Below are positions 9,615 to 42,425 of a DNA stretch of 64,000 nt, one piece after another; the stretch's first letter is position 1; each line of letters opens with the position of its first letter. The notes under the pieces are model-generated. The model did no database searches. It saw only the letters and a program-made list of their open reading frames with translations, and was not told where the DNA came from. Position numbers and translations under genes: made by a program. The stretch spans positions 62,001 to 126,000 of the forward strand of contig JAIBAP010000006.1 of assembly GCA_019695115.1 (NCBI GenBank), given 5' to 3'. The stretch comes from Caldilineales bacterium. Its GTDB lineage: Bacteria > Chloroflexota > Anaerolineae > J102.

Positions 9615-9845
9615 TGCGTGATGCGTGGTGCGTGGTGCGTGGTGCGTGATGCGTGGTGCGTGGTGCGTGATGCGTGATGCGTGGTGCGTGGGGCGTGGGG
9701 CGTGGGGCGTGGGGCGTGGGGTGTGATGCGTGGGGCGTGATGCGTGATGCGTGGGGCGTGGGGCGTGATGCGTGGGGCGTGGGGCGTGGTGCGTGGTGCG
9801 TGATGCGTGATGCGTGATGCGTGGTGCGTGGTGCGTGGTGCGTAG
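9615..9845. repeat. 33-unit heptanucleotide array (TGCGTGG/TGCGTGA/GGCGTGG)
   Basis: Thirty-three uninterrupted in-phase heptamers, nearly all matching KGCGTGR. The array starts six bases from the start codon of the leftward gene at 9608, so on that strand the leader reads as (YCACGCM)n. There is no coding potential of note. Confidence 0.95.
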
Positions 9846-24049: not shown

Positions 24050-24056
24050 GAGCGAA

Positions 24057-25988
24057 TCAGCGACGGCCCCCGGCGAGGATGGTGGCAGCGGCCGCCAGCG
24101 CGGCCGCCAACGGGGCTGCCAGCGCCCAACTGCGCCCGACCTGGGCCAGGCTGAGGGCGATGGGCCGGCTGGGCTGGCGCAGGCTGCCGGCGGTGGAAAT
24201 GGCGCCGGCCGTGGCTGCCAGCCCCACCAGCGAGCGGGCGGCCGAAGCGGCGGGCAGTGCGGTGTAGGCCGGCCAGAGGAGCGCCAACCCGGCCCATTTG
24301 CGCAGAGGTTGGGGGCTGACGGCCATGCGGGCATCGCCCAGGGCGCGCTGGGCGGCGCTGAGATGGTGGGTGTGTCCGGCCGGGTGCTCGCGATCAAGGG
24401 CGTCGACCGGGTCGGCGGGCAGGCGGGAGCGGAGCAAGAGGGGGAGGGTCAGGATCAGCAAGCCGGCCGGCCAGCGACGGGCGCCGGAGAGGAAGGGCGG
24501 CGGGGCGACGACCATCTGCACGGCCAACGGCAAGGCCCAGTCGAGGTGGCCGAGGCGGAGGCTTTCGATGCGCAGGGCGTAGTCGGGCTGGTTGGCGGCG
24601 GCGGCGGCCAGCAGCCCGGCAGCCGGCGCCGCCAGGAGCGAGGCCGGCCCAGCCGCCGGCCCGGCGGAGAGGGCGGCCAGGGCCAGGAGTTTGGCGGCGT
24701 AGGAGGGGGCGTAGGTGTGTTCGAGGGCGTCGCGGGGCCGGTCGAGCCGGGGCAGGAGGGTGGAGGCCAGGGCGAAGCCGCCGCCGGCCAGGGCCATAGC
24801 CAGCGGCAGGGGCAGGGGCAGCAGACGGTCGGCGGTCAGCAGGCCCAGGCCAAGCACCGGGAGCGAGAGGTCTAATCCGGCGGCGGCAGGTGAGGCATCG
24901 ACCAGCGGTTGCTCCAGCCAGGTCTCGACCACTGCCTGGACGCGGGCCAGGGGCAAGGGGTCGGGCCAGGAGGCGGCCGGGGCGTGTTGATGATCGTGGC
25001 CGTGGTCGTGACCGGGCTCGTGGTCGTCATGCTTGTGTTCGGGGAGGTCGAGGCTGAAACCGGCGTGGTGGGTCAGGGCATGAACGAGTTCATCCAGATA
25101 GCGGTAGACGGCGGTGGGGGTGGAGGCGTGGACGCCGATGTCGGTATCGACGAAGATGAGGCGGATGCCGCCTTCTTGGGCGCGCAGGCTGGCGCGGTAG
25201 GCCAGGCTGGCTTCGTCCTCGCGGTCGAGGTCGGCGGGGGTGTAGCGCAGGGCCGGGAGGGTGCAGTCGGGGGCCGTTTTGGCGATGAACCAGTCGCCAC
25301 GCTGGTGGCGGCTATCGGGGAAGTAGGCGGCGGTCAGGTTGTGGCGGCGCAGGCTGGCGGCGGTGTCGGCCAGGTGCATCTCGTGGCCCAGGAGGGGGTC
25401 GTCGGCGAAGGCGATGATGCTGGCCTCCAGGCCGGCGGCCTGGGCCAGGGTGCGTTCGATGGTCGCGGCGGTGGGCCAGGGGTAGCTGACCGGGCGGGCG
25501 ATGAGTTGGAGGCCGGTGGCGCGGGCAAAGCGGAAGGTTTCGGGGTCGAAGCCAAGCCCCAGGGGGCGGATGGCGGCCAGGTCTCCTGTGAGATCGAGGC
25601 TGTCTGGGCTGGTTTCGGCCAGCAGGTGGGGGAAGCGGGCCTGGAATTCGGCCTGGAGCCGGGTGATGAGGCCGGACCGGGGGCTGGTGAAGCGGTGGAC
25701 ATCGGGCAGGCCGCTCCCGTGCGGGGTCAGCGCCCCGGCCCGGATCAGGCTGTCAAGGGTGTCTTCGAGCAGGGCGATGTGGGTGGCGCCGTGGTGGCGG
25801 CAGTCGTGCAGGAAGTCGTAGAGCGGGCGGCCGGCGCGGGTGGCGGCGATGCTGGCCTGCTCGAAGTAGAGGCTGAGGTAGACCTGCCGGTTGTGCTGTT
25901 CGCGCCGGCGCCGTTGTTGGATCTGCCGGAAGACGGCGGGCAGCCCGACCAGGATCAGCCCGGATGCGAGAAAGGGGGTGAGGCGCAT
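24057..25988 (-). CDS. DUF5693 family membrane protein with His-rich loop
   Basis: A 643-residue protein. The N-terminal half is a soluble domain outside one short membrane anchor (MRLTPFLASGLILVGLPAVF). It contains LTGDLAAIRPLGLGFDPETF and RLIFVDTDIGV and resembles DUF5693, a family found with polysaccharide-pyruvyltransferase and flippase genes. At ~350-370 lies a His/Asp loop, HKHDDHEPGHDHGHDHQH, a likely metal-binding stretch. The C-terminal half has ~8 membrane segments. Biochemical function is unknown. It precedes the flippase by 7 nt. Heptamer arrays lie just upstream of its start, whose leader lacks a Shine-Dalgarno sequence. Confidence 0.72.
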   Translation of the reverse strand: MRLTPFLASGLILVGLPAVFRQIQQRRRREQHNRQVYLSLYFEQASIAATRAGRPLYDFLHDCRHHGATHIALLEDTLDSLIRAGALTPHGSGLPDVHRFTSPRSGLITRLQAEFQARFPHLLAETSPDSLDLTGDLAAIRPLGLGFDPETFRFARATGLQLIARPVSYPWPTAATIERTLAQAAGLEASIIAFADDPLLGHEMHLADTAASLRRHNLTAAYFPDSRHQRGDWFIAKTAPDCTLPALRYTPADLDREDEASLAYRASLRAQEGGIRLIFVDTDIGVHASTPTAVYRYLDELVHALTHHAGFSLDLPEHKHDDHEPGHDHGHDHQHAPAASWPDPLPLARVQAVVETWLEQPLVDASPAAAGLDLSLPVLGLGLLTADRLLPLPLPLAMALAGGGFALASTLLPRLDRPRDALEHTYAPSYAAKLLALAALSAGPAAGPASLLAAPAAGLLAAAAANQPDYALRIESLRLGHLDWALPLAVQMVVAPPPFLSGARRWPAGLLILTLPLLLRSRLPADPVDALDREHPAGHTHHLSAAQRALGDARMAVSPQPLRKWAGLALLWPAYTALPAASAARSLVGLAATAGAISTAGSLRQPSRPIALSLAQVGRSWALAAPLAAALAAAATILAGGRR

Positions 25989-26139: not shown

Positions 26140-28215
26140 CTACTTGCAAGCCGGGTGGGCATTGGCCAGGTTTTTGCAGGCGGTGGCGGTGATGTCGGGG
26201 GGCGGGGCCAGGTCGAGGACGGCGCGCCAGGCTTCTTCGGCCAGGGGGGAGCGGGCGGCTTCGGCGGCGTGGGCGCGGCCAAGTCGGAGGTCGAGGTTGT
26301 TGGGGCGCAGTTTTAGCGCGCGGTCGAAGGCAGCCAACGCCTCGACGGATTTCTTATCGGCATGGAGGGCGAAGGCCAGGGCGGCCCAGGCTTCGGGCAG
26401 GTCGGGGGCCAGTTCGACCGCCCGCCGCCCGTGGACGATGGCTTCGGCAGGTTGCCCGGACTGGCGCAGGAGGTTGGCCAGCAGCAGGTGCGCCCAGGGG
26501 TTCTCGTCGTCGATCGTCAACGAGTTGCGGTAGGCGCGGGTGGCGTCCTGGGGCCGGCCCGTTTGCTGGTAGGCAAAGCCCAACTCGGCCCAGAGGTTGC
26601 CATCGCCGCTTTGCAGCGGGATGAGCACCTGCAGGGCGGCGATGGCGGCCGGCCAGTCGGTGTTGGCCCGCGCCTGGCGGGCGAATTGGCGCAATTCGTC
26701 GATGTGGTCGGCCGGCCGTGGGGTGGTGAGTTCGGCGGGGAGGAGATCCAGGCCGGCCGGCGCCGAGGCCTGAGCCAGGGCCGAGGCTGGGAAGTGATAG
26801 AGGTCGAGCGACGGGGCGAAATGCTGTTCCAAAGCGCCGGCGGCCAGGGAGGGATAGTCGGCGATGGGAAAACGACTGTAGAGCGATTGCAGCAGATAGA
26901 TGTCGGTGGCGTCGCCCGCGGCCACGGCCACCTGGTCGAGCGTGTCGGCGTCGATCAGCCGCGTCTCCGGCAGGTAGTGGCGGACATAGGCGGCGGCGGC
27001 GGGGATGACGACGGCGCTGGTTGCGGTCAGGCGCGGGCGCAGGTAGGCGGCGGCGGCGCGCCAGTCTTCGTAATCAGGGTGGCGGGCCAGGCGCAGGCCG
27101 GGGGTGAAGGTCGCGATCAGTAGGCAGACGGCCAGGGAGGGCAGGGCGCGGCGGATCGGCTGGGGGAGAGCGGTCGCCCGCCCGAAGGCCGCGGCCAGGC
27201 CGGTGAGTCCGGCGGCGGTGAGGATGAGCAAGGGCGGCAGGCTGCCGATGAGGTAGCGCGGGCTGAAGAATTGGTCGCGCTGGGCCAGGCTGTAGAGGAT
27301 GAGGACGGGCGGCAGGAGCAGCCAGAGGAGGATGAAGGCCAGGTCGGCCGGGCGCCGCCGCCGGGTGATGACGCCAACAATGGCGGTCAGCAGCACCGGC
27401 AGGCCCCAGGGCCAGGCGCCTGTCAGCCCGGTGGGCAGCTCGGCGGCGAGTTCGGCGGGGGTGGGGAAGGCGCTGGCAACGGGGGCGATCTGCAGGCTTG
27501 CGGCGGCGGAGGGGCCGGTCAGCCCCTGGGCAAGGGCCTGGCCAAAACGGAAGAGGTAGTCGGGACGAAAGGGCGAGAGCAGAAAGATGGCCAGGATGAC
27601 GGCGAAGGCCGAAATGCCCGGCGCCAGCGCCTGCCAGCGCCGCTGCCGGCGGGCCGCGGCCAGGCCGGTGACCAGCCAGTGCAGACCGTGCACGGGCAGG
27701 AGGGTGAGACCGAATAGGTGGGTGTGCAACAGGGCCAACATCGCCGGCGCATAGCCCATCCAGGCCTCTGGTTGTTTGGCCGCAGCCAGATAGAGCCAGG
27801 TGCAGAGCAGGACGAGGGCCAGGAAGAGGCTGTAGGGGCGCAGCTCGCGGCTGTATTGCACGGCCAGGGGCGCAAAGGCCAGCAAGAGGGCGCTGAGGGC
27901 CGGGATCGGCGGCGGCGCCAGACGACGGGCGACGGTGACGATGAGGGCGATGCTGATCACACCGATGAACGCAGCCGGCAGCCGCAGCCAGAACTCCTGG
28001 CTCCCCCAGCCAAGCGCCAGCCGGGTGAGGACGAAATCGGCGGGCATGTGGGCGCCGTAGGTCAGCGCCGCCGGGAAATCGCCCCAGGCCGCCTGCGCCA
28101 GCCGCAGCTGGATCAACTCGTCCAGCCAGAGACTGAAGCCATCCAGATCGGCCACCCTCAGCCCAAAACCGGCCAGGAGCGCCGCCACGAGCAAGAGGCG
28201 ATGACGAGGCGACAT
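26140..28215 (-). CDS. GT39-like membrane glycosyltransferase with C-terminal TPR
   Basis: A 691-residue protein. Residues ~1-420 have 10-11 membrane helices and the first-loop acidic motif FSLWLDELIQL, the pattern of dolichol/undecaprenyl-phosphate-sugar-dependent GT39/GT83 transferases. A soluble region follows. The last ~140 residues form TPR repeats (LWAELGFAYQQTGRPQDATR; AWAALAFALHADKKSVEALA). Such enzymes add sugars to proteins or lipids on the outer face. ATG at 28215, 14 bp from the GT2 gene upstream. Confidence 0.8.
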   Translation of the reverse strand: MSPRHRLLLVAALLAGFGLRVADLDGFSLWLDELIQLRLAQAAWGDFPAALTYGAHMPADFVLTRLALGWGSQEFWLRLPAAFIGVISIALIVTVARRLAPPPIPALSALLLAFAPLAVQYSRELRPYSLFLALVLLCTWLYLAAAKQPEAWMGYAPAMLALLHTHLFGLTLLPVHGLHWLVTGLAAARRQRRWQALAPGISAFAVILAIFLLSPFRPDYLFRFGQALAQGLTGPSAAASLQIAPVASAFPTPAELAAELPTGLTGAWPWGLPVLLTAIVGVITRRRRPADLAFILLWLLLPPVLILYSLAQRDQFFSPRYLIGSLPPLLILTAAGLTGLAAAFGRATALPQPIRRALPSLAVCLLIATFTPGLRLARHPDYEDWRAAAAYLRPRLTATSAVVIPAAAAYVRHYLPETRLIDADTLDQVAVAAGDATDIYLLQSLYSRFPIADYPSLAAGALEQHFAPSLDLYHFPASALAQASAPAGLDLLPAELTTPRPADHIDELRQFARQARANTDWPAAIAALQVLIPLQSGDGNLWAELGFAYQQTGRPQDATRAYRNSLTIDDENPWAHLLLANLLRQSGQPAEAIVHGRRAVELAPDLPEAWAALAFALHADKKSVEALAAFDRALKLRPNNLDLRLGRAHAAEAARSPLAEEAWRAVLDLAPPPDITATACKNLANAHPACK

Positions 28216-28229
28216 GGGCGGAATCGAGC

Positions 28230-29279
28230 TTAGCCCTGCGCCCCTGACCCTAACAGCGCGCCCGGCCGGTCGGGGGCAAGATGGCCGCGAGCGAAGGGCG
28301 AGCGGGCGTAGTGAAGCAGGCCGATGGCAAAGGCGATGGCGTTGTAGCCGTAATAGAGCCAGTGCCAGGGGATGACGCGCAGGGCAAAACCCAGCCCGCG
28401 CCGGGCCGCAAACCAGCGGTACAGGCCCCGGTTGAGCACCAGCAACAGCCCCGCCAACCCCAGGCTGGCGGCCAGCGCCGCCGGCGCCCAAACCGACGCC
28501 GCCAGGCTGAACAGCAAAAGCCAGAAGGTGACGACGCTGATGCGGTTGTGCGTCTGCAGATTGAGGTCGTTGACGAAGGCCCGGTGCCGCAAGATCAGCT
28601 CGGCCCAGGGGATGCCGCGGTCGATGATGTCGGAACGCAGCAGATTGGCGGCCGTCCAGCGTTTGCAGTGCGTGGCCAGCAGGTGCTTGTCCAGGCGGAT
28701 GCGGCCGCCTTGCCGCGCCAGTCGGTAGCCTAGCTCGATGTCTTCGATACACGGCCGCCCGTACTCGTCGGTGAAGCCGCCCAGTCGGAAGAAAACATCC
28801 CGCCGGATGGCCCCACAGCCCGTCCAGAAGGTGTTGGCCTGCTCGGAGCCGTGCTGGTGGACATAATGATGGAAGAGGTTCTTGTATTGGCTGAGGAAGC
28901 CGGGGTCGGCGGGCCGGTCATCGTAGGAGCCAAAGAGGGCGTCGAGGGCGGGTGAGCCATCCGGCCCGGTGGCGGCGAAGGTGGCGGCGACGCGGGCGAC
29001 GGCGTCGGGGTGGGGGATGACATCGGCGTCCAGGAAGAAGAGGATCTCGCCGGTGGCGGCCACGGCCCCCAGGTTGCGGGCCACGGCCGGGCCAGAGTGG
29101 GGGTGGGGCGTGCTGAGGACGCGGCATCCGCTCGCCTGGGCGATGACGGCAGTGGCATCCGAGGAACCATCATCGACGACGATGATCTCGCCGGGGCGCT
29201 GCCGGCCGGTTTGCAGGGCCGAGAGCAGGGCAGGCAGAAAAGCGGCGGCGTCGAGGGCGGGGATGATGACGGAGATCAT
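28230..29279 (-). CDS. Family 2 glycosyltransferase
   Basis: A 349-residue inverting GT-A enzyme. ISVIIPALDAAAFLPALL starts the nucleotide-binding fold, with VVDDGSSDAT and FFLDADV supplying the DxD metal site. CIEDIELGYRL supplies the ED motif with the catalytic base. The C-terminal ~110 residues hold two or three membrane segments. Probably transfers a sugar from a nucleotide donor to a polyprenyl carrier. Five nt separate it from the preceding flavoprotein gene, so they are cotranscribed. Confidence 0.88.
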   Translation of the reverse strand: MISVIIPALDAAAFLPALLSALQTGRQRPGEIIVVDDGSSDATAVIAQASGCRVLSTPHPHSGPAVARNLGAVAATGEILFFLDADVIPHPDAVARVAATFAATGPDGSPALDALFGSYDDRPADPGFLSQYKNLFHHYVHQHGSEQANTFWTGCGAIRRDVFFRLGGFTDEYGRPCIEDIELGYRLARQGGRIRLDKHLLATHCKRWTAANLLRSDIIDRGIPWAELILRHRAFVNDLNLQTHNRISVVTFWLLLFSLAASVWAPAALAASLGLAGLLLVLNRGLYRWFAARRGLGFALRVIPWHWLYYGYNAIAFAIGLLHYARSPFARGHLAPDRPGALLGSGAQG

Positions 29280-29284
29280 GGCGG

Positions 29285-30712
29285 CTAGTCGACTTTATAG
29301 GTCTTGCTGACATCGATGTATTCGGCTTGTTGGCCGATCAGGTAGTCGGTCAGGGCGAGGGCGTCCTCGATGACGCCGTCGCTGTTCATGTAGCGGAACG
29401 AGCCGGTGCGCCCCACCAGGTGCAGGCTGGGGAAGCGGTCGGCCAGGAAGGTTTTGACGGCTTTGACTTTGTCGGCGTAGCCGATGTAGTAGACGGGATA
29501 GGCGAAGGGGACGCGCAGCACCCACCAGTGATGCAGGCTGTGGGGCGGGATGAAGCCGATCTGCTCGAAATCGCGCACGGCCCTCTCCACCAGCTGTCCG
29601 TCCTCCATCTCCCAGGTTGGCTCGCCCCGGCTGGTGAAGACCTCCGCCGCCAACGAGGTGAAGCCCGCCGGCGCCAGTTCCTGGCTCCAGTTGCGCGGCT
29701 CGTGCGTGCGGCCGCACACCAGTTCGGGCTGCGGGAAGTAGGTCCAGCTGTCGTCGCTGACACGCGGCCGGTCGAGGGCCAGGAAGAGCAGGATCATGTC
29801 GCGATAGCTGAGCTGGAAGTCGCGTTCGACCGTATGGGCGCCGGTTTCGGCGTGCAGGGCAGCCAACAGCAGGTTGAGGGGGATGGACGAGATCAGGCGG
29901 TCGGCCTCGATCTGTTGCTGTCCCCCGGCCTCCTGGATCTCCACCTGCCAGCGGCCGCCGGGAAGCGGGCGCAGGGCCGAGACCCCGGCCCCGGTGATCA
30001 CCCGGCCGCCCAGCCGTGTGATTTCCTGGCCTATGCGGTCGGGGATCATGCCAAAGCCGCTGCGCGGGTACCAGAAGTGCGAGATGATGGTGGGGGGCGG
30101 CTCGGCGCCGGGGATGAGGGCGCGCTTGACGGCCTCCGTCAGGCTGGGCAGGCTGATGCGCTGCGCCGCCCAATCGGCCGAGAGTTGGGTGCAGGGGATG
30201 CCCCAGACTTTTTCGGTGTAGGGGCCGAAGAAAACATCGTACATCGCCCGGCCAAAGCGGTTCACTACCCAGTCTTCGAAGGAAATGTCGGCGCGATGGC
30301 CGTTGAGCCGGTGTTTGATGACCGCGGCGCCGTAGCTGCCCACCACGCGCGCGGCCTGGGCTGGGCTGAAGATGCTGAGGGCGCTGGGGAAGCGGATGGG
30401 GTAATCGACGAATTTGCCTTGCAGGTAGATGTGGCTGATGCGCGGCACCCGCAACAGGTCTGGCCCCATCAGGGCCTGAATCCAGGCGATGATCTCGGGC
30501 TTGTGGCTGTGGAAGCGATGGCCGCCGATGTCGAAGCGGAATTCGCGCTGGGAGTCGTCGCGGCCAACGTAGGTGCGCGCCAAACCGCCCACCTGCCGGC
30601 CTTTTTCGATGACGGTGACGCGGCGACCCCGCCGCGCCAGTTCCAGGCCGGTTGCCAGGCCGGCAATGCCGCCACCCAGGAGGAGGACGTGTTCGTGGGG
30701 CTTACAGATCAT
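29285..30712 (-). CDS. FAD-dependent oxidoreductase (amine-oxidase / UDP-galactopyranose mutase-like)
   Basis: A 475-residue flavoprotein. The N-terminus has the FAD-binding Rossmann motif HVLLLGGGIAGLATGLELAR, followed by GGLARTY and DIGGHRFHSH. The latter is typical of NAD(P)-binding 'protoporphyrinogen oxidase-like' proteins that accompany glycosyltransferases and include UDP-galactopyranose mutase relatives. YTEKVWGIPCTQLSADWAAQ and SRYMNSDGV-like ends are present. It could isomerise or oxidise a sugar nucleotide for the polymer. The ATG at 30712 overlaps the upstream gene stop (ATGA). Confidence 0.82.
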   Translation of the reverse strand: MICKPHEHVLLLGGGIAGLATGLELARRGRRVTVIEKGRQVGGLARTYVGRDDSQREFRFDIGGHRFHSHKPEIIAWIQALMGPDLLRVPRISHIYLQGKFVDYPIRFPSALSIFSPAQAARVVGSYGAAVIKHRLNGHRADISFEDWVVNRFGRAMYDVFFGPYTEKVWGIPCTQLSADWAAQRISLPSLTEAVKRALIPGAEPPPTIISHFWYPRSGFGMIPDRIGQEITRLGGRVITGAGVSALRPLPGGRWQVEIQEAGGQQQIEADRLISSIPLNLLLAALHAETGAHTVERDFQLSYRDMILLFLALDRPRVSDDSWTYFPQPELVCGRTHEPRNWSQELAPAGFTSLAAEVFTSRGEPTWEMEDGQLVERAVRDFEQIGFIPPHSLHHWWVLRVPFAYPVYYIGYADKVKAVKTFLADRFPSLHLVGRTGSFRYMNSDGVIEDALALTDYLIGQQAEYIDVSKTYKVD

Positions 30713-31926
30713 GGGCTTGTGCGCGTGGTCGGCGTCCATTGGCGGGGCCGGTTCAGCAGGGTGTCGAGGGTGCTGCGGGCCGCGGCCAGGAGATCGACGG
30801 GGAAGATGAGCAGAAGGAAGGGCAGGCGCAGCCACCATGCCCAGGGTTTGTGCGTCCGGACGAGGGCGGCGATCACTTGCAGGTAGGGAAGGACGAGGAC
30901 GGCGATGAAGAACCAGGCGGGGAAGTCGAAATGGGTCGGCAGGATGGCGTCGCTGAGGAGGAGGCCAGCCGCCGCCAGCAGGGCCAGGCGGTCGAGATAG
31001 CCGAGGCTGAAGAGGAAAAGTTCGAGGCGGAGCCAGAAGGAGAGGGGAGGGGCGGACTGGGGGCCGGACGGGCGGCGGCGCTCACGGCCCAGGGCCACAT
31101 CCTGAAAGCCGCGGCCCCAGCGCACGTGCTGCCGCCAGTAGGCGTTCAGGGTGGCGGGGGCCTGGTCGATGGCCGGGATCGATTCGACGAAGCGGGTGCG
31201 CAGGCCGGCGGCGGCAAGGCGCAGGGTGAGGTCGGTGTCTTCGAGGAAAGCGCCGGGGAGGAAGCCGCCCAGGGTGGCCAGAACCGAGCGGCGGTAGGCG
31301 CAGTGTGAGCCGAGGATGGCCGGGGCCAGATGCAGCCGGTCTTTGGCCGCCATGGTCAGGCGCTGATGGACGAGCCGTTCGCTGGCCGAGTAGTAGGCGC
31401 TGGCCGAGACAAGGGCGTTGGCGGCCTCGGTGCGGCCGCTGACGGCGGCGACCTGGGGATCGGCGAAGGGGGCAACGAGGGCGAGCAGGCCGCCCGGCTG
31501 GGGCCGGTGGTCGGCGTCGTAGACGGCGATGATCTCGCCCCACGGTTCGGCGACGAGGGCGGCGTTGAGGGCAGCGGCTTTCCCACGGCCAGGGGAGAGG
31601 TGCAGGGCGGCGGCGCCAGGGGTCTGCGCCGTCAGTTCGTCGATGAGGAGGGCGGTGTGGCTGCGAGAGCCGTCATCGATGAGGAGGAGGCGGAGATGGT
31701 CGGGCGGGTAGCCGTTTTGGCTCAGGGCGTCCACCAGGGGGGGCAGGCTGGGGCCGTCGTCGCGGCAGGGGATGAGGACGAGCAGGTTGGGAAAGGACGG
31801 CGGCGGCGCTGGGGGCGAGAGCCGCTGGGGTGAAGCAAGAGCCGCTATTGTAAAGATAAGCCGTCGCAGGCTGAAAACCAGGAGGGGCAGCGCGACGAGC
31901 AGGCTGGCCAGGTGCGGAAGCGTCAT
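30709..31926 (-). CDS. Membrane glycosyltransferase (GT2-like)
   Basis: A 405-residue protein with one N-terminal membrane helix and a GT-A core: NLLVLIPCRDDGPSLPPLVD, LLIDDGS, IAVYDADHRPQPG and LEDTDLTLRL. A QHVRWGRGF motif, close to Q/RxxRW of processive synthases, follows, then three membrane helices. The pattern is that of synthase-type enzymes such as hyaluronan or N-acetylglucosaminyl transferases. It overlaps both neighbours by ATGA, showing tight translational coupling. Confidence 0.87.
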   Translation of the reverse strand: MTLPHLASLLVALPLLVFSLRRLIFTIAALASPQRLSPPAPPPSFPNLLVLIPCRDDGPSLPPLVDALSQNGYPPDHLRLLLIDDGSRSHTALLIDELTAQTPGAAALHLSPGRGKAAALNAALVAEPWGEIIAVYDADHRPQPGGLLALVAPFADPQVAAVSGRTEAANALVSASAYYSASERLVHQRLTMAAKDRLHLAPAILGSHCAYRRSVLATLGGFLPGAFLEDTDLTLRLAAAGLRTRFVESIPAIDQAPATLNAYWRQHVRWGRGFQDVALGRERRRPSGPQSAPPLSFWLRLELFLFSLGYLDRLALLAAAGLLLSDAILPTHFDFPAWFFIAVLVLPYLQVIAALVRTHKPWAWWLRLPFLLLIFPVDLLAAARSTLDTLLNRPRQWTPTTRTSP

Positions 31927-33107
31927 CGCAGGGCCAGGGCCAGCCGGCGGCGGAGGAGGGCGGCGGTGTCGGTGCGGTGGAAGGCAACGCCGCTGCGCCA
32001 CACGCGCCAGGCTTCACGGCGGTCACGCGCCCATCCTGCCGCCAGCGCCCGGTCGTTCAGGCCCCGGCGCAGGCGCTGGCCGATGGTGGTGAGCGGGGCT
32101 TTTTGGGTCAGGCGCCAGAGCGAGGGCAGATCGAGGGCTTCGGCGCGGCTTCGTTGGCCGGGCGGGAGGTCGGCGGCTAGCCGTTGTAGCCAGGCGGCGG
32201 GGACGGGCGCGGCGTAGGCGGCCTGGGCCAGCCGCAGAGCGCCGTAGAGATGGGCGCTGGCGCCGGTGGTCTGGGCGCGAGTGTAGAGACCAGGATGGCC
32301 GGCGCTCGGACGGTCGAAGGCCAGGTCGGGGAAGGCTTCCAGCAGGCGGCGGAGGTCGTAGAGTTGGATCAGGGCGGGTTTGCCCATCAAGAGGTGGAAG
32401 ATGAGGTGGGCGGCGACGTGGAGCAGGCAGTCGGCGGGGTGGAGGGCGAGGGCCGGGACGCCTTCCAGTTCCCAGGCTACGGCTCTGTCCCAGATGTCGT
32501 CGCCCAGTTCCAGCCGCAGACCGAACCAGGATTCGGTGAGCGAGGTGTGCGGTTCGAGGTGAAAGCTGTCGTCGGCGAAGAGATAGGGGTTGGCCGTGCT
32601 GGTGGCGGCGGTGGCTGGGGTTGCGCCGGCGGTCTTGTAGGTCCACTCGTGTTTGACGATGCCGGGGCCTCTTTCGGGGTCGGTGTGTTTGCCGCTGTAG
32701 CCCAGCTGGGCGAGGACGGTCTGCAAGCGGGGGAAGTTGGCAGGCCGGACGAGGACATCGATGTCGGTCATGCCGCGCAGCCCCAGGTCGCGGTAGATGG
32801 CTGGGGCCAGGTAGGCGCCCTTGAGGACGATCAGCGGCAGGGCTTCGTCCCGGCAAGCCCGTAACATCTGGGCCAGGGCCGCCAGGAGGGTGGCGTTGCG
32901 GGCCTGGGTGCGTTGGGCGGCCAGGCGCAGGCGGGCAGCCTGGAGGGGCGGCAGTTGCTCGCCGGCGTTGTGCAGCAGCAACGGCCCCAGCCCGGTGGCG
33001 TGGGCAAAGACGCCGACCGCCTCCCAATCGACGCCGCTGAGCTGTTCGCCGGCCAGGAGACTAAAGAGGGCGGCGGCAGGGGCGGGGAGGCTGTGGGGGG
33101 CGGCCAT
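31923..33107 (-). CDS. Uncharacterised nucleotidyltransferase (PF14907-like)
   Basis: A 394-residue protein of the nucleotidyltransferase family found in polysaccharide and RiPP loci. The core motif is LKGAYLAPAIYRDLGLRGM followed by TDIDVLV, residues ~96-120, giving the DxD pair of the polymerase-beta fold. A conserved region LHPADCLLHVAAHLIFH follows. Target unknown. The ATG at 33107 is chosen because an earlier TTG would begin within the terminator of the upstream radical SAM gene. It heads the polysaccharide block and may instead belong functionally with the peptide/radical-SAM pair upstream. Confidence 0.83.
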   Translation of the reverse strand: MAAPHSLPAPAAALFSLLAGEQLSGVDWEAVGVFAHATGLGPLLLHNAGEQLPPLQAARLRLAAQRTQARNATLLAALAQMLRACRDEALPLIVLKGAYLAPAIYRDLGLRGMTDIDVLVRPANFPRLQTVLAQLGYSGKHTDPERGPGIVKHEWTYKTAGATPATAATSTANPYLFADDSFHLEPHTSLTESWFGLRLELGDDIWDRAVAWELEGVPALALHPADCLLHVAAHLIFHLLMGKPALIQLYDLRRLLEAFPDLAFDRPSAGHPGLYTRAQTTGASAHLYGALRLAQAAYAAPVPAAWLQRLAADLPPGQRSRAEALDLPSLWRLTQKAPLTTIGQRLRRGLNDRALAAGWARDRREAWRVWRSGVAFHRTDTAALLRRRLALALR

Positions 33108-33121
33108 GGGGCGGGTGGATG

Positions 33122-33148
33122 ACAAAAAGAAGGGGCGCAATGCGCCCC
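33122..33148 (-). terminator. Intrinsic terminator of the radical SAM gene
   Basis: Read leftward, GGGGCGCA and TGCGCCCC form an 8-bp perfect stem with a 1-nt centre, followed by TTCTTTTTG. It separates the radical SAM gene from the nucleotidyltransferase operon. Confidence 0.85.
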
Positions 33149-33174: not shown

Positions 33175-34689
33175 TCAGACCGATTCGCTGGCGCCAAAGG
33201 CGGCGTGGCTGGCGGTGGGGCCTTTGTGGGTGTTGTCGTTGTAGCGGACGAGCCGCGGGCGTAAGGCATCGCGCAACGAGCGCAGCGGGCCGACGCGCTG
33301 GATGAGGGCGGCGCCGCCGGTCTTGACGGCGCCTTCGAGATAATACTTGAAGAAGCCATGCCGCCAGCGCCAGCGCAGCAGGGCGTAGTAGGGGGCCAGG
33401 AGCCAATGCCCCTGGCTGCGGCCGACGAAGAGGATGTCGCAGATGTCGGACATGGCCCGGCCTTCGCTCTCGCTCACCCAGGGTGTGTTGCCTTTGTGGA
33501 TGTCGAACTCGGCCCAGCCCATCTGGTCGGCGGGCGGGATATAGCCGCGCTCCAGGGCGTCGGGCCAGAGCGGGGTGCCCGGATAGGGCATGTAAATGGC
33601 CACCGAGCAGCGGGCCTTGCGGTTGACCGCGCACACGCGCTCGATCACATCCAGGGTGAGACGGCGCTCGGCCGGGCCTTCGGCTGGCAGGCCGAGGATG
33701 AAGCTGAGGTTGGCTTCGATGTCAGGGGCATATTCGGCCAGGTTGCGGATGCCCCACTCGATCATCTCGGCCCTCTGGTCTTTGTGGATGCTATCGAGCA
33801 CAGCCTGCGAGCCTGACTCGGCCCCAACGTTGACCCACTGGCAGCCGGTCTGCGCCATCCACTGCACGAACTCCGGCTTGAGGAGCTGCACCCGCACCTG
33901 CCCGCTCCAGGGCATGCCCACCGTCTCGACCATGCGTTGCATGGCTTTGATGCGGCCAAACAGATAGTCGTCGGCGTAATCGACGGCGTCGATGCCGTAG
34001 TGGTCGCGCAGCCAGTGCACCTGTTCGACTACAAACGCCTCGGAATGTTGCCGCCAGGTGCGTTTCATCACCACTTCGTTGTAGCAGAAACCGCACCGGA
34101 ACGGGCAGCCGCGCGAGATGTAGACCGGGATGGCGCGGCGGTAGGGGCCGGATTGCAGGAAGTAGGCCGGGATGTTTGGCAGCAGATCCCAGCGCGGGCG
34201 GAAGTCATCCAGGTTGGCGATGAACGGGCGTTCGGGGTTGATGTGGATGTCGCCCCCCTCGTCCCGCCAGGCCAGACCCCGAATGCTGGCCAGCTCCCGT
34301 CCGTCGGCCAGCGCCTGCGTGAGTTCCTGCGCCGTGACCTCGCCTTCGTTGACGATGACGAAATCGACATAATCCTCTTTCAGCACCGCCTCGGGCATGA
34401 TCGTGGCATGGACGCCGCCCCAGACGGTGGGGATGCCCATGGCTTTGACAGCCTGGGTGGCCTCGATAGTCGTCCGTAGTTGCGGGCCGGTGATGGTGCT
34501 GAAGCCGACCCAATCCGGGCGTCGGCGCTCCACCTCGCGCAAGAAATTTTGTTTGCCCGCCTCTGTCTCATGGAAGATGCGCACTTCGCAGCCTAATTGC
34601 AGCAGGGCGTCGGCCACATACATGATCCCAAAAGGGGGATACATGTCGCGCTCGTTGCGAAAATTGACCAGAAAGACGGAGGCGGGCAT
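33175..34689 (-). CDS. B12-binding-type radical SAM protein
   Basis: A 504-residue protein. Residues ~1-135 form a cobalamin-binding-like Rossmann domain (FGIMYVADALLQLGCEVRIF; VWGGVHATIMPEAVL). The radical SAM core follows with the 4Fe-4S motif RGCPFRCGFCY, using Cys195, Cys199 and Cys202, and GAESGSQAVLDSIHK later. The C-terminal ~100 residues are basic. The family includes BchE-like enzymes and RiPP-modifying methyltransferases. It is preceded 207 bp upstream by a 22-residue peptide gene and followed by a terminator, so peptide and enzyme probably form one transcription unit. Confidence 0.9.
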   Translation of the reverse strand: MPASVFLVNFRNERDMYPPFGIMYVADALLQLGCEVRIFHETEAGKQNFLREVERRRPDWVGFSTITGPQLRTTIEATQAVKAMGIPTVWGGVHATIMPEAVLKEDYVDFVIVNEGEVTAQELTQALADGRELASIRGLAWRDEGGDIHINPERPFIANLDDFRPRWDLLPNIPAYFLQSGPYRRAIPVYISRGCPFRCGFCYNEVVMKRTWRQHSEAFVVEQVHWLRDHYGIDAVDYADDYLFGRIKAMQRMVETVGMPWSGQVRVQLLKPEFVQWMAQTGCQWVNVGAESGSQAVLDSIHKDQRAEMIEWGIRNLAEYAPDIEANLSFILGLPAEGPAERRLTLDVIERVCAVNRKARCSVAIYMPYPGTPLWPDALERGYIPPADQMGWAEFDIHKGNTPWVSESEGRAMSDICDILFVGRSQGHWLLAPYYALLRWRWRHGFFKYYLEGAVKTGGAALIQRVGPLRSLRDALRPRLVRYNDNTHKGPTASHAAFGASESV

Positions 34690-34700
34690 GGGGGTCCTCG

Positions 34701-34725
34701 TTCGGGCGGCTGGGGTAGCTGCGCT
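34701..34725. repeat. 25-bp inverted repeat, left copy
   Basis: TTCGGGCGGCTGGGGTAGCT plus five bases. Its reverse complement occurs at 35047-35071 with a single mismatch. The copies flank the 22-residue peptide gene. Confidence 0.85.
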
Positions 34726-34895
34726 GAGCCGAAGGTGACTACAGTGGGTGTAGCGCCGGGCGAACCGGCCGGTAGGGACGATGGCGAAGGCTGAATCTGT
34801 CTGGCGCTCGGCCAGAGGTCTCAGACTGCGCGGGACGGAGTGAGCGAGCCGGGTCGGCGCCCAGGCACAAGGGCCAACCGGCTAGGTGATGGCGC

Positions 34896-34964
34896 TCAGT
34901 GCGAGCTGAAGGTGACTTGCTTCAGTTCTTCGTGTTTGACGAGGGTCGGCTTTTCGTACTTCAT
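34896..34964 (-). CDS. 22-residue RiPP-leader-like peptide
   Basis: A short gene read leftward, ATG at 34964, with a strong GGGAG ribosome-binding site eight nt upstream. The peptide begins MKYEKPTLVKHEEL and ends KQVTFSSH. Its spacing Tyr3, Pro6, Leu8, Thr18 matches the lasso-peptide leader pattern YxxPxL...T, with Glu12 replacing the usual Gly. After Thr18 only four residues remain, so no lasso core is encoded. It lies upstream of the B12-type radical SAM gene on the same strand. I infer a ribosomally made substrate or a leader-like cofactor peptide for that enzyme; no product is known. Confidence 0.65.
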   Translation of the reverse strand: MKYEKPTLVKHEELKQVTFSSH

Positions 34965-35046
34965 GTTACATCCTCCCAAGAGTCCATCGGTGTGGGAGCC
35001 GGCGGGATGCAAGGGCATCATCGCTGGCAGTCGATTGGTTGGCCGA

Positions 35047-35071
35047 AGCGCAGCTACCCCAGGCGCCCGAA
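35047..35071. repeat. 25-bp inverted repeat, right copy
   Basis: AGCGCAGCTACCCCAGGCGC plus CCGAA, complementary to 34701-34725 at 24 of 25 positions. Confidence 0.85.
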
Positions 35072-35116: not shown

Positions 35117-35199
35117 TAGGGCGGGTGGGGGTCGAACCCACAAGTGCCTTTGCACGGCGGATTTTAAGTCCGCTGCGTATGCCATTTCGCCACCGCCCC
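35117..35199 (-). tRNA. tRNA-Leu (UAA)
   Basis: An 83-nt cloverleaf. The acceptor 5' strand GGGGCGG pairs with CCGCCCT, with a G-U closing pair, and the discriminator is A. The anticodon arm GCGGACTTAAAATCCGC gives anticodon TAA. A variable arm GTGCAAAGGCAC identifies a class II tRNA. The T-arm is GTGGGTTCGACCCCCAC. CCA is not encoded. Confidence 0.95.
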
Positions 35200-36251: not shown

Positions 36252-39200
36252 ATGCAACGACGGATTTCGACAACGTGGGCGGTGCCGATAATGCTCGCCC
36301 TCCTCCTTCTCTTGCTGGTGGTGTTCCTGGGGCCGGTCAATAGCGCCGCGTCCGCCCTCCAGGCTGACCAGGCTTCTGCTCTGGAGCCACAGGCCACGCC
36401 CACCACGGTCGTCCTCAGTCAGGGACTGAACGGCTATGCCGGCACGACCGACACCTGGCTGAATTTCTTTGCCACCTCTACCAACTATGGCGCCGCCGAT
36501 CGGTTTCAGGTGAGGGGTGGGGGGCAGGCCAGCGCCCTCGTGCGTTTCGATTTGTCGTCACTGCCGGCCGGCGCGACGATCCTCGACGCCCATCTGCAAC
36601 TCCATACGATCGGACGATCTTCGGTTGGCCCGATCGATGTCGGCGCCTTTGGCCTGCGCCGGCCGTGGAAAGAGAACGAGGCGACGTGGGCTGAGGCGGC
36701 GGCGGGCGACCCGTGGGCCGGGCCAGGCGCCAGCAACCCTGATTTCGACAGGTTGCCAGCGTCATCCTCGGTCGCCTCGGTATCAACGCTCAACGACGAT
36801 TACGTCTGGAATGTGACGGATCTGGTGCAGGGCTGGTATGCCGACTCCTCCGGCAACAACGGCCTCATCCTGGTCGGTGTCAGCAGCACTCTAATCGCCT
36901 ACGAATTTCAATCCTCATTTGGCGGCTACTTCGAAGATCGCCCGAAACTGGTCATCACCTATGTGGAGGGGACGGTAGAGACCTCCACGCCCACACCCAC
37001 GTTCACGCCCTCAAGCAATACATCGACCCCGACCCCCAGCCCAACGCCCGTCCCCACCATTTCCGTCATCCTCAGCCAGGGGCGCGATGGCTACACCGGC
37101 ACGAACGACACCTGGATCAACTCCTTTGCTACCACGGCCAATTACGGCGCGGCCACCTTGCTGGAGGTGCGAGGGGGCGGGCAATCGAGTTCGCTCGTGC
37201 GCTTTGATCTTTCATCCCTGCCAGCCGCCGGCATCACCATCCAGCGGGCGCGGCTGCGGTTGTACAGCCTGTCGCGCTCGAACAGCGCCCCGGTCAATGT
37301 TGGGGCCTTCGGGCTGTTGCGGCCGTGGGCCGAGCACGAGGCCACCTGGGAGATGGCGATGGCCGGACAGCCGTGGCACAAGCCCGGCGCCACCGGCGAC
37401 GACAGCGACCGCACCCGCGACCCGATCGCCGTCAGCCCGGTGCCGGCGGTCAATGTCTGGACGGATTGGGATGTCACACCCCTGGCAAACTTCTGGCACG
37501 ACGTTCCGAGTGAGAATTTCGGCATCCTCTTGCAAGGGATCAGCCCCACGTTGGTGCAATATGACTTCCAATCTTCATTTGGCGGCGATTGGCAGCAGCG
37601 CCCGCAGTTGGTGGTCGATTACAGCTTCGATCTGAACACCACCGACACGCCCACGCCCACGATGACACCCACTTCGACCTCCAAACCTACCTCCACAGCC
37701 ACCCGCACTCCCACGTCTACACCTACACCCACCCCCAGCCGCACGCCCACTTTTACCACCACCCCCACCGCCACCCCCAGTCGAACGCCCACTTCTACCA
37801 CCACCCCCACGGTCACTCCCAGCCAAACGCCCACCCCCACAGCCACTCCCAGCCAAACGCCCACCCCTACTGCTACCCCCACCTCCACGCCCGGCCCAAC
37901 GGCTACGCCCACCCCCACGCCCACGCCATCGCCCACCCCCAGCCCGACGCCCACACCCACCCCAACCGCCACCTTCACCCCAACGCCGACTTTCACCCCC
38001 ACCGCCACCCCCACGGCTACGGCCACGCTCACCCTCACGCTCACCCCGACGGCCACGCCCACCGGCCCTTCCTCGCCGCCTGATAGCTACGAAGACGATA
38101 ACGCCTGCACCCGCGCCAACGTCATCCCCACGGATGGCTCGACTCAAACCCACAACTTCAACCGGCCGGGCGACCAGGATTGGATCAAATTCACCGCCGA
38201 AGAGCACAAGACCTACGTCATCGAGACCTCGAACATTGGCGCCGACCACAACGGCGTGCTCTCGATCTTCAACGCCTGCCAGAACCCGTCGCTTGGCTCG
38301 GCCGACAATGCTTTTGGGCAGACGCTGCGCCTGGAATGGGACGTCCAAACGGCCGGCGTCTACTACCTGAAGATGCAGCAACACGATCCCACCATCTTCG
38401 GTCCGACTACCAACTATAACATCAGTGTCAGCAAGGACGTTTTGCCACCCTCGCCGCCGGCCAGCCTGCGCACCTCGGCCCTCGACCGCGCCCTGGCCAT
38501 CCAGTGGCGGCGCAGCTCGGGCCGCGATGTTGCAGGCTATTACGTCTGGTTTGGCACCACATCCGGCTTCTACAGCGGTTTCGAGCCGGTAGATGGGGCG
38601 GATGTCACCTACTTTGAGCTGACCGGGCTACAGAATGGACTGCGCTATTACGTTGCCATCAGCGCCTACGACTTTTCGGGCAATGTCAGCAACCGCTCGT
38701 TGGAGATCAGCGCCCAGCCGGCTCCCCCGCCCGACCAGACGGCGCCGGTAGTTGCCATCGATCAGCCAACGGCCAACGCCGCCTATTCGACCACGCTCGG
38801 CATCCTCAGCGTCGGCGGCGCCGCGACCGACATTGCCAACAACCTCAGCCGGGCGCGGGTGCGCAACATCACCCGCAGCAAGGAATGGTGGGATTACAGT
38901 CTGGAGGGCGGGAGCGACTCGTTCCACATCGACAACGTCGAGTTGGGTCAGGGCGCCAACGATATCGAAGTCACCGTCTTCGATTCGGCTGGCAACCAGG
39001 GAACCGATAGCTTGACCATCAACCGCCTGACTTCTAGCCCCGGTTCGGTCATCATCCTGGCGGGGCGAAACGACACCAACAGTCTGCAAACCAATATCGA
39101 AAACGCCACCAACCGCGCCTATCGGGTGTTCAAGGGAGCCGGATTCAGCGACGACGACATCTATTACCTGGCGCCTGTCTCCCAGGACCCGAACGGGGAT

Positions 39201-40136
39201 GGCGTGTACAACGAAGTCGACGCCACGACGAGCGCCAGCAATCTGCAACAGGCGATCACGGTTTGGGCGGCGAGCGGCGGGCGGGTTGGCCCTGGCAAGC
39301 CGCTCTATCTCTACATGATGGATCATGGCGAGATCGACTATTTCTGCGCCGACGGCTGCACCTCGTCGGGTCGCTTCACTGCCCGTTCGTTGGATGGCTG
39401 GTTGGGCAGTCTGGAAAGCAGCAGCAGCGTGGATCAGATCAATATCATCGTCGAGGCCTGCCATTCCGGCAGCTTCATCGACCGCAGCGGCGAACCTCTG
39501 CAGAGCATTTCGCGCTCGGGCCGGGTGGTCATCACCTCGACCAACCGCGACAACAATGCCTATGCCTCGGCCCAGGGCGCCTATTTCTCCGATTCCTTCT
39601 TCTCGTGCGTGGCGGCCAGCAACAGCTTGCGCTTCTGCTTCGACCAGGCCCGCTCTGCCATCGCCGCCACTGGCAACCTGCAACAACCGTGGATGGACGA
39701 CAACGGCGACGGCCTCAGCAACACCCTCGATGGTTCGCTGGCGCAGGGCCGCTACGTCACACACTTCTTTGGCATCTCGCCCCCTCGCTTCGTGGCAGCG
39801 ACGGTGAGGGTGGTGGGTGGCAATGGCGTCTTGGAAGCCCGCCTGGAAAGCGGCTCCGAGCCGGTCGAGTTGGTGTGGGCGGCGGTCTATGCGCCGTCGT
39901 TCCAAGAACCAGACAACACCACGCTCGACCTGGGGGTGCCGTTGGTGGCCCTGAGCGCAGTTCCAGGCCAGCCGGACCTCTATCGCGCCACGTACAACGG
40001 TGGTTTCATCGAACCAGGCGCTTATCGTGTGGTTTTCTACGCCCAAGACCGCGTCGAAAGCTACGCCCAGCCCTGGCTGCTCATCAGTGGGGGGGCGCAG
40101 GTCTTTCTGCCCATGGCCCTGCGCGCCAGTCACTGA
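36252..40136 (+). CDS. Large secreted C13/caspase-like cysteine peptidase with DNRLRE, PPC and FN3 domains
   Basis: A 1294-residue exported protein. Signal peptide (~1-35). Two DNRLRE-type domains at ~48-235 and ~270-455 ([20 protein letters not shown] and its repeat). A TPT-rich linker runs to ~605. A PPC domain (~609-725) and a fibronectin III domain (~729-825) follow, then a strand-rich segment. A clan CD peptidase domain from ~930 has candidate catalytic His1025 in YMMDHGEID and Cys1070 in VEACHSGSF, a 45-residue spacing like legumain (C13). The C-terminus [11 protein letters not shown] carries the shared LP tail. The ATG at 36252 has no obvious ribosome-binding site. First of three consecutive caspase-fold genes. 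Confidence 0.83.
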
Positions 40137-40232
40137 AAAGGAGGCACAACCGCAACTGAACCCAAACACCCCTCGACTACTCACCACTCTACCCTGTCAC
40201 ATCTCATGCAACCCTCAGGAGGGAGGGAATCT

Positions 40233-42314
40233 ATGAATGCGAACAATCCCACTCAGGCGCGGCGCCGGCTGTTGTTGGCAGTCCTGACGCTCGCTCTGAC
40301 ACTCATCGTGATCGTGCCGCTGGTCGTGGCGCAACCGGCCCCGGCCCCGGCGGCGCCCGGCGCGCCCGGCGCATCCAGCCCGGCCGCCCTCGACCCCGCC
40401 GGCGCCCTCGGCGCCGATGACGGCGTCCTCGATGTCGGCGCCGAGCACCAGGCCGACGGCCCGCCCTACGGCTCCAGCCCTGGCGACCTGCCCATCTGCC
40501 AGACCTCGGCCAACAATTTCTACTGGCGGATGCGCAACATCGGCGGCTACACCGGCTCCAACAGCTTCCTCTACGCCAACAGCCTGGCCTGGGAAACAGA
40601 CTGGAAGAGATCGGCCTTAGGCGGCTCGGAGGAAATCTACGCCGACAACGTCGATATCGCCTACTACTGCGACCACGGCAGCAACGGCGCCGTCTACTTC
40701 CCCTGGGGCCACACCGATAACTGGCTCGTGCCCAACGATTGCTACGGCTCGTGGGGCACCAAGGACAACGAGTGGATGGCCTTTGGCACCTGTCTGACCC
40801 TGACCGACCGCGGTGGCTGGGCCAACTGCATGAATGGCCAACACCTGATCGCCGGCTACATCACCGTCTCCTATGATTCCGACGAAGGCGGCGAATGGGC
40901 CAATCGGCTGCTGGCCGGCAACACCGTCACCCAGGCCTGGTTCGGGATGTGCGACGCCACTCAGCCCAGCAGCGTGGTGGCCCGCGTCATCGCCGAAGAC
41001 TGGCGCCATTTCAGCGACCGCATCTGGAATCGCGGCGGCCCGGCCTATGGCGACATCGTCGACAGCTGGTACTACTGGCAAGACCACCAATGCTACAAGG
41101 CCCCGCCCAAGATCATCGACCCTGACTCGATCACGGCCATGCCGGCCTATGTCGTGCAGGATCGGGCAGTGAACACGGACTTCGTGCAGAACATCGCCGG
41201 CGCGCTGGGTCTGGAAGGCCAGGCCACGCTGGACAACGGCGTCTACACCCTAGTCGACACCACCGGCGGCATGACGCACACGCTGACGGTCGATGCGGCT
41301 TCGGGCGGCTATCAGTACCAGAACAATAGCACGCTCTGGGTGGCGCCCGATCCCAGCGAGCCGGCCGCCCTCCCCGACCCGGCGGAAGCGATGCACCTGG
41401 CCGATAACTTCTTCCTGGCGAACGCCCAAGCCCTGCCCGGCGCTTCCTATCTGGCCAATGGCTCTGCCTTTACCGAGCAAGTGACCCAGGCGGAGCGCGG
41501 CGGCGGCTTTCTGGGGGCGGATCGCATCGTCCAGGAGCAGGGTGTGGATGTCATGGTCGCCTACGGCCGCAATCTGACCGTGGGTCTGGCCCAGGGCGGC
41601 ACGACTGAAGTCTCGGTCGCAGGCCCCGGCGCCGGCACCAAGTACTACATCGCCCAGGCTGCCACCGCGCAAGACGCCCTGGCCGGCGGCCCCGCCGGCG
41701 TCGTTGGCGGCTCGCGCGATGTGAGCATGGGCGCGTCTATCGCCGTCCAGGACTCCGATAAGGCCTGGGAGGCGTTCGAGGCCGATCATCAACTGGCCAT
41801 TGTCACCATCCCGCTGGACGCCGACCACTTCGAGCGCCATCCCATCTCCGACACGCTGGCCTACTACGAGCAGCCACACGGCATCTCGCAGCAGGAACTG
41901 ATCCCGGTCTGGGTCTTCAATGCCGACCTGTTCAAGGGCCAGGACCTGCTGGTGGCCAACGCCCTCATCTACGTCCCCGCCTCGCCCGACTACTACCCGC
42001 CTACGGGACAGATCATCAGCCCCGCCGATGGCTTCGGCGCCGTGGCCGGACAGCAGATCACCTTCAAGGCGCAGGCAACCGGCGGCTTCGGACCATTCAC
42101 CTACGACTGGTCTTCCAGCGTCGATGGCCCGTTGGGCACGGGGGCTGAGATCATGGCAGCCCTGAGCGGTGCAGCCCACCCTGAACAGGATGGCCCCACG
42201 CCGCACAGCATCAGCGTCAAGATCACCAACGCCAACGGTCAGTCGCGTACGCTCACTGTCGGGGTCACTGTCGGTCGACCGATCTACTTGCCCATGCACC
42301 TGTTCGCTCACTGA
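40233..42314 (+). CDS. Secreted DUF6345-like protein with caspase-fold His/Cys pair
   Basis: A 693-residue exported protein. Signal segment (RRRLLLAVLTLALTLIVIVP), then an Ala/Pro-rich linker. A domain at ~85-260 has YYCDHGSNGAVYF (His148) and AFGTCLTLTD (Cys187), 39 residues apart, each after a hydrophobic strand. This is the clan CD arrangement and resembles DUF6345. The middle region (~290-590) is unrecognised. A PKD/Ig-like module at ~595-685 precedes the C-terminus IYLPMHLFAH, a variant of the shared tail. The ATG at 40233 has a strong AGGAGGGAGGG upstream. Peptidase activity is inferred, not shown. Confidence 0.72.
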   Translation: MNANNPTQARRRLLLAVLTLALTLIVIVPLVVAQPAPAPAAPGAPGASSPAALDPAGALGADDGVLDVGAEHQADGPPYGSSPGDLPICQTSANNFYWRMRNIGGYTGSNSFLYANSLAWETDWKRSALGGSEEIYADNVDIAYYCDHGSNGAVYFPWGHTDNWLVPNDCYGSWGTKDNEWMAFGTCLTLTDRGGWANCMNGQHLIAGYITVSYDSDEGGEWANRLLAGNTVTQAWFGMCDATQPSSVVARVIAEDWRHFSDRIWNRGGPAYGDIVDSWYYWQDHQCYKAPPKIIDPDSITAMPAYVVQDRAVNTDFVQNIAGALGLEGQATLDNGVYTLVDTTGGMTHTLTVDAASGGYQYQNNSTLWVAPDPSEPAALPDPAEAMHLADNFFLANAQALPGASYLANGSAFTEQVTQAERGGGFLGADRIVQEQGVDVMVAYGRNLTVGLAQGGTTEVSVAGPGAGTKYYIAQAATAQDALAGGPAGVVGGSRDVSMGASIAVQDSDKAWEAFEADHQLAIVTIPLDADHFERHPISDTLAYYEQPHGISQQELIPVWVFNADLFKGQDLLVANALIYVPASPDYYPPTGQIISPADGFGAVAGQQITFKAQATGGFGPFTYDWSSSVDGPLGTGAEIMAALSGAAHPEQDGPTPHSISVKITNANGQSRTLTVGVTVGRPIYLPMHLFAH

Positions 42315-42331
42315 TCGTTCCATCCTCGTTC

Positions 42332-42363
42332 GGGTTGGCGGGGCTATCCGGCCCCGCCAACCC
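42332..42363 (+). terminator. Strong GC hairpin between the second and third caspase-fold genes
   Basis: GGGTTGGCGGGGC and GCCCCGCCAACCC pair perfectly over 13 bp with a 6-nt loop. The downstream sequence has only scattered T. It could be a terminator or an attenuator that lowers expression of the third gene. Confidence 0.6.
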
Positions 42364-42425
42364 ACCCATTTCGTTTCCGTCCGGCCCCGTCCGGACACCC
42401 CACCACCGCCCTGGGAGGCAGGCTG

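Follow-up and report, generated by a model that had tools for sequence, protein, structure and literature searches.

The 64,000-nucleotide stretch of DNA analyzed here, referred to below as the window, carries on its minus strand a gene of 22 codons, running from ATG to TGA (34896 to 34964), that encodes the precursor-like peptide MKYEKPTLVKHEELKQVTFSSH. A strong Shine-Dalgarno sequence, GGGAGGA (34971 to 34977, minus strand), lies a few bases ahead of the ATG, and homologues of the gene are likewise preceded by a strong one. Residues 1 to 18 of the peptide are leader-like (Y3xxP6xL8 and T18) and are followed by the conserved end F19-S20-S21-H22. A preliminary description of this DNA had already pointed to the ribosome-binding site, to the resemblance to a lasso leader, and to the FSSH end. 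All three hold: among the 33 short ORFs of the window that combine a strong Shine-Dalgarno sequence with an ATG, this one alone fits the leader pattern, and both the precursor layout and an F-S-x-H end are conserved. Upstream of the peptide gene lies a tRNA-Leu(TAA) (35117 to 35199, minus strand), which stands just before the peptide both here and in the three other genomes of this family (at L006 5325 to 5408, L007 9879 to 9962, and L008 649 to 733). A tRNA-Cys precedes that tRNA-Leu(TAA) in three of the four.

Downstream of the peptide gene, as previously noted, lies the gene for a radical SAM protein of 504 amino acids with a B12-binding domain (33175 to 34689), in which both PF02310 (E 5e-20) and Radical_SAM PF04055 (E 1e-13) match above cut-off. 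The terminator proposed after this unit corresponds to a hairpin and T run at 33132 to 33148 (minus strand), between the radical SAM gene and the next gene; it is kept at the same place in one of three close relatives and is absent from the other two. That next gene (31923 to 33107) encodes the nucleotidyltransferase of PF14907 (NTP_transf_5) type that had been suspected there (E 8e-40). Its AlphaFold model (pLDDT 90) resembles the nucleotidyltransferases ANT(2'')-Ia and LnuA and, weakly, FKRP. The operon continues with a membrane-type family 2 glycosyltransferase (30709 to 31926), a PRK07208-type FAD-dependent oxidoreductase (29285 to 30721, start approximate), and a further family 2 glycosyltransferase (28230 to 29279), all three conserved in the operon, and then with a PMT_2-type (GT-C) membrane glycosyltransferase carrying a TPR domain (26140 to 28215, start approximate), a DUF5693-like protein (24057 to 25988; 32% identical to the DUF5693 protein of L031), and a polysaccharide-flippase-like protein (22607 to 24060, start approximate). 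The last of these is 54% identical to a flippase of G005, a genome from another genus, where the flippase adjoins DUF5693 and FGE-like genes. All genes from the peptide through the flippase-like gene lie on the minus strand. On the plus strand, at 36252 to 46649, there are three consecutive large, secreted-looking ORFs of 1294, 702, and 1407 amino acids. Repeats rich in Thr and Pro mark the first of these, and similar short motifs close at least two of the three.

The 22-codon ORF is a true coding gene, conserved and under purifying selection, and it is this conservation that most strongly shows it not to be a chance ORF. The window's genome (G000) and G005 encode an identical peptide, with seven synonymous and no nonsynonymous changes between them (pS 0.58, pN 0.00), while the 60-base flanks have fallen to an identity of 0.22 to 0.37, which is background, so that in the DNA alignment the ORF stands as an island of identity between diverged flanks. 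The 17 complete copies comprise 15 distinct sequences. In every copy the leader Tyr stands at the same distance from the stop, exactly 20 residues, and no indels separate the distinct sequences over this length. Y, K-P, K, L, T-F-S, and the C-terminal H are invariant positions, and in all 15 distinct sequences only four residues follow T18. It is very improbable, in our view, that the ORF is instead a regulatory upstream ORF, an attenuator peptide, or a product of chance. Its small size, its position 206 to 271 nt before the first enzyme gene in the window's family, and the hairpin 3' of the radical SAM gene would suit such a role, but amino acids and C-terminus are kept while codons and flanks change, different genes follow the peptide in different lineages, and G298 carries copies on two contigs. 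A search of the leader region against Rfam also gave no match, and the leader motif fits RRE binding. The gene probably encodes a precursor from which a tiny modified peptide is made.

The distribution of the peptide places this precursor in a wider setting. Among 61 relatives searched, the 22-mer occurs in four genomes, 86 to 100% identical and always ahead of the same radical SAM gene, with the rest of the window's operon conserved to the contig limits. A profile search of 396 Anaerolineae-class genomes gave 14 with a strong peptide match; a peptide in G179, cut by a contig end, was counted apart from these. The radical SAM orthologue is present in 15 of the 396, and the two occur together in 13, a co-occurrence for which Fisher's test (p = 2e-21) overstates the evidence because the genomes are not independent samples. 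As these 13 are all but one of the peptide genomes, the peptide is indeed conserved along with homologous enzymes, as the original proposal would have it. Together, the genomes with peptide and radical SAM come from roughly twelve genera that belong to several families. No additional peptide was found at E <= 0.01 in 400 genomes drawn from the phylum to cover its other classes, and in sister genera that lack the peptide, PF14907 relatives are distant (29 to 37% identity) and no similar peptide was present at the loci examined. One peptide genome, G065 (81% complete), yielded neither the radical SAM protein nor the kinase described below.

The idea of a minimal pair of peptide and radical SAM enzyme does not survive this comparison, as the constant neighbor is the PF14907 gene. 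Beyond the window's family, each of the 12 loci has it as the next gene after the peptide, at a distance of 53 to 358 nt. The radical SAM gene adjoins the peptide, across the 206- to 271-nt gap, only in the four genomes of the window's family; elsewhere it lies kilobases away or on a separate contig. In these other lineages, a search confined to the DNA just ahead of the radical SAM gene gave no peptide, and scanning the complete loci placed it before PF14907 instead. Two further observations concern the PF14907 genes. G298 holds two differing copies of the cluster of peptide, PF14907, DUF5693, and FGE-like genes, on contigs C16 and C144 (L086 and L087). A diverged second PF14907-like gene (23 to 25% identity) is found at L086 1521 to 2297, L087 1942 to 2544, L021/L145 2874 to 3581, and L030 2148 to 3062.

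The properties of the radical SAM protein itself bear on whether it acts on the peptide. Its CxxxCxxC motif (C195, C199, and C202) is invariant in 24 orthologues. Orthologues at 61 to 80% identity occur across Anaerolineae-class MAGs and form a distinct Chloroflexota group. In its AlphaFold model (pLDDT 82) the fold is near that of TsrM, AprD4, OxsB, and TokK, with which it shares the two-domain fold and the CxxxCxxC cluster motif at only about 15 to 20% identity. The sugar diol dehydratase AprD4 is the top-scoring known enzyme by sequence, and the RiPP radical SAM families TIGR03975 and ApyD are matched weakly. As a TsrM-like fold is thereby paired with AprD4 as the best match by sequence, the model would fit a peptide or a sugar substrate alike.

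It could be envisaged that this enzyme directly modifies the peptide, for example by methylation or another change at F19, S20, or H22, with the remaining proteins as accessories. Adjacency of the two genes in four genomes, their strong co-occurrence, a predicted fold nearest to the TsrM and TokK methyltransferases, and the weak matches to TIGR03975 and ApyD would all be in line with such a role. We nevertheless regard it as rather unlikely, for the gene is not beside the peptide outside the window's family, no RRE domain is seen in the model, AprD4 is equally close in fold, and the FAD enzyme, glycosyltransferases, and flippase suggest a sugar substrate. The suggestion, made in the preliminary description, that the radical SAM protein modifies the peptide is accordingly weakened by the lack of an RRE domain in the model and by relatives whose substrates include both sugars and amino acids.

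Candidates for the missing functions become visible when the peptide loci are compared. In four loci the system lies in one block with the peptide (L023, L034, L084, and L085), comprising PF14907, a PqqD-family RRE, an HprK-like kinase, a Transglut_core3 protein, an AsnB-type amidotransferase, and the radical SAM protein. DUF5693 and FGE-like genes are part of the block in L023, L084, and L085 but not in L034, and glycosyltransferases and flippases also occur in several peptide loci. The absence of a lasso cyclase and protease near the peptide had been remarked on before, and this stands for the 64-kb window, in which no relatives of PqqD, B2, or AsnB were found; it does not stand for the genome, as lasso-type machinery lies on other contigs. 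FGE-like, flippase, RRE, and AsnB genes are on contig C75, a B2-like protein is encoded on C28, and an HprK-like kinase on C79, so that the window's genome has all parts of the system, spread over four contigs. Most peptide genomes similarly encode a PqqD-family RRE elsewhere, whereas a search of G002 (79% complete) gave none. The two halves of the system are tied together by the gene order of G005, where genes for a flippase, an FGE-like protein, and an RRE lie beside those for GT-C and DUF5693.

Comparison with curated models gives these partners different degrees of likeness to lasso enzymes. One member of the Transglut_core3 (B2-like) proteins scores 44.2 bits against a cut-off of 33 for NF033537 (lasso_biosyn_B2), and in the window's genome the B2-like protein keeps its Cys and a GHAW motif, while the kinase keeps GxxGAGKTTTG. 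Some genomes of the window's family carry the B2-like gene but no peptide, and the gene may therefore not be dedicated to the system there. The kinase matches its curated family weakly (25 bits). The AsnB proteins, which have an intact MCGI start, score 440 to 453 bits with the asparagine synthase model (cut-off 267) and 224 to 234 bits with the lasso cyclase model NF033535, short of its cut-off of 525. The FGE-like proteins were rejected as formylglycine enzymes, since they show no conserved Cys pair at the catalytic position. On visual inspection, several small proteins encoded near FGE-like or AsnB genes resemble DinB (L082 12276 to 12794, L135 10151 to 10681, and L147 12973 to 13515). EgtB is a fusion of DinB and FGE that acts on histidine, and it could be speculated that a split EgtB-like enzyme acts on the terminal His of the peptide. 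In a literature search from which most subscription journals were missing, no paper was found on DUF5693, these peptides, or the system.

The closest known systems are the linear polyphosphorylated peptides (LPPs) and the tailoring of paeninodin and pseudomycoidin. LPPs have the leader motif YxxPxVLxHQxIxFETxxS, are encoded in polysaccharide loci by clusters with an RRE, an HprK-like kinase that targets a core Ser close to the leader end, and an NTP transferase, and are described as restricted to Bacillota (Popov et al. 2026, PMC13381572). Set against this consensus, the 22-mer has Y, P, H, L, and T in register and differs at the remaining positions, so that the leader register in common is Y1, P4, H9, I/L12, and T16, followed by Ser; in the 22-mer family the Ser is invariant at T+2 and often also present at T+3. 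A discrete RRE, an HprK-like kinase, an NTP transferase, and a place in polysaccharide loci are likewise common to both. In contrast to the Bacillota LPPs, with their long variable cores, SpI-like peptidase, and MsbA-like transporter, the Chloroflexota system has an invariant core of three to four residues, a B2-like peptidase, scattered genes, and, in addition, the radical SAM, FGE-like, DUF5693, and AsnB proteins. Neither an SpI-like peptidase nor an MsbA-like transporter was noticed among the ORFs listed for its loci.

Pseudomycoidin is tailored by two enzymes in turn, the Ser kinase PsmK and then PsmN, which adds hexoses (PMC9266682). With the paeninodin and pseudomycoidin lasso systems (PadeK, PsmK, and PsmN), the system described here shares an RRE, a B2-like peptidase, an AsnB-family protein, an HprK-like kinase, and a nucleotidyltransferase, as well as a [Y/W]xxP leader with a Thr near its end. 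The core is here too short for a lasso ring, the AsnB protein has an intact glutaminase Cys and fits asparagine synthase over lasso cyclase, and the conserved end is FS-x-H instead of a C-terminal Ser. The 22-mer also scores 12.8 bits against the curated lasso leader model NF033521, below its cut-off of 19. As the core could not accommodate both a macrolactam ring and a threaded tail, and as the AsnB protein falls below the lasso cyclase cut-off, we conclude that the 22-mer is not a lasso peptide. Likeness also extends to the XrtA/PEP-CTERM exopolysaccharide loci, whose amidotransferase the AsnB protein resembles below the curated cut-off; HprK_rel_A is the only curated match of the kinase, weak and again below cut-off.

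When these comparisons are combined, we lean, with moderate confidence, toward a reading in which the 22-mer gives rise to a short RiPP-like product, made by lasso- and LPP-related enzymes and integrated into a pathway for cell-surface glycans. By analogy, the system would work like LPP or paeninodin tailoring, but without a long variable core, and the best reading would be an RRE-guided peptide that is phosphorylated and glycosylated on Ser20 and tied to the assembly of surface glycans. The PqqD-like RRE would bind residues 3 to 8 (Y-x-x-P-x-L), the HprK-like kinase may then phosphorylate the invariant Ser20, and the PF14907 enzyme could place a sugar or nucleotidyl group on the phosphoserine, as PsmN acts after PsmK. 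The B2-like peptidase would cut at or after Thr18 to leave a modified core of three to four residues. The radical SAM protein, FAD enzyme, GT2 and GT-C glycosyltransferases, AsnB, and flippases may elaborate, amidate, and export a glycan that carries the modified core or is primed by it. The choice of Ser20 for phosphorylation and the sequence of the steps are proposed by analogy only. The co-occurrence of the 22-mer with radical SAM, PF14907, RRE, kinase, B2-like, and AsnB genes supports such a pathway; the B2-like gene found without the peptide, an AsnB that is not a cyclase, the weak kinase match, the four contigs in the window's genome, and G065, with neither radical SAM nor kinase, count against it.

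An invariant core argues for a fixed role, such as that of a primer, an anchor, or a cofactor-like molecule, rather than for a diversifying antibiotic. In an alternative reading, the peptide would carry a conserved small molecule or give rise to it, with FSSH or a part of it excised and remodeled in the manner of the PQQ and mycofactocin precursors instead of serving as a tag. The invariant end, set against the variable cores of LPPs, and the abundance of redox-type enzymes in the vicinity (radical SAM, FAD oxidoreductase, and FGE-like) would agree with this. We consider it unlikely, as genes for glycan assembly and flippases dominate the loci and no cofactor-type dehydrogenases were noticed. 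A link to the glycan may be carried one step further, as a tentative suggestion. The system could represent an undescribed family in which the precursor is nearly all leader and the invariant Phe-Ser-x-His end, modified by lasso-derived enzymes and a cobalamin radical SAM protein, serves to prime, anchor, or tag a surface glycan of Chloroflexota cells with a ribosomally synthesized unit.

A near-invariant "core" of three to four residues is the opposite of the usual core of a natural product, and lasso- and LPP-type machinery may thus extend beyond antimicrobial-style products to a role that is conserved and perhaps structural or cofactor-like. The 22-mer is also a candidate substrate for the PF14907 nucleotidyltransferases and HprK-like kinases of polysaccharide loci, and it is short enough to be synthesized, which makes RRE binding, phosphorylation, and glycosylation testable in vitro. 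A related peptide is found in L009 (G048:C1:707500-727400), at about 9715 to 9827 on the minus strand, where a nearly identical leader, YEAPKLIKHQRLQKVT, is followed by a longer core of 17 residues, LATTPPPLNFPNALPGQ, in the neighborhood of PqqD, a fragment resembling HprK, and a radical SAM protein of 32% identity. This peptide was considered as a family member and left out, as a cousin with a real core of ordinary length.
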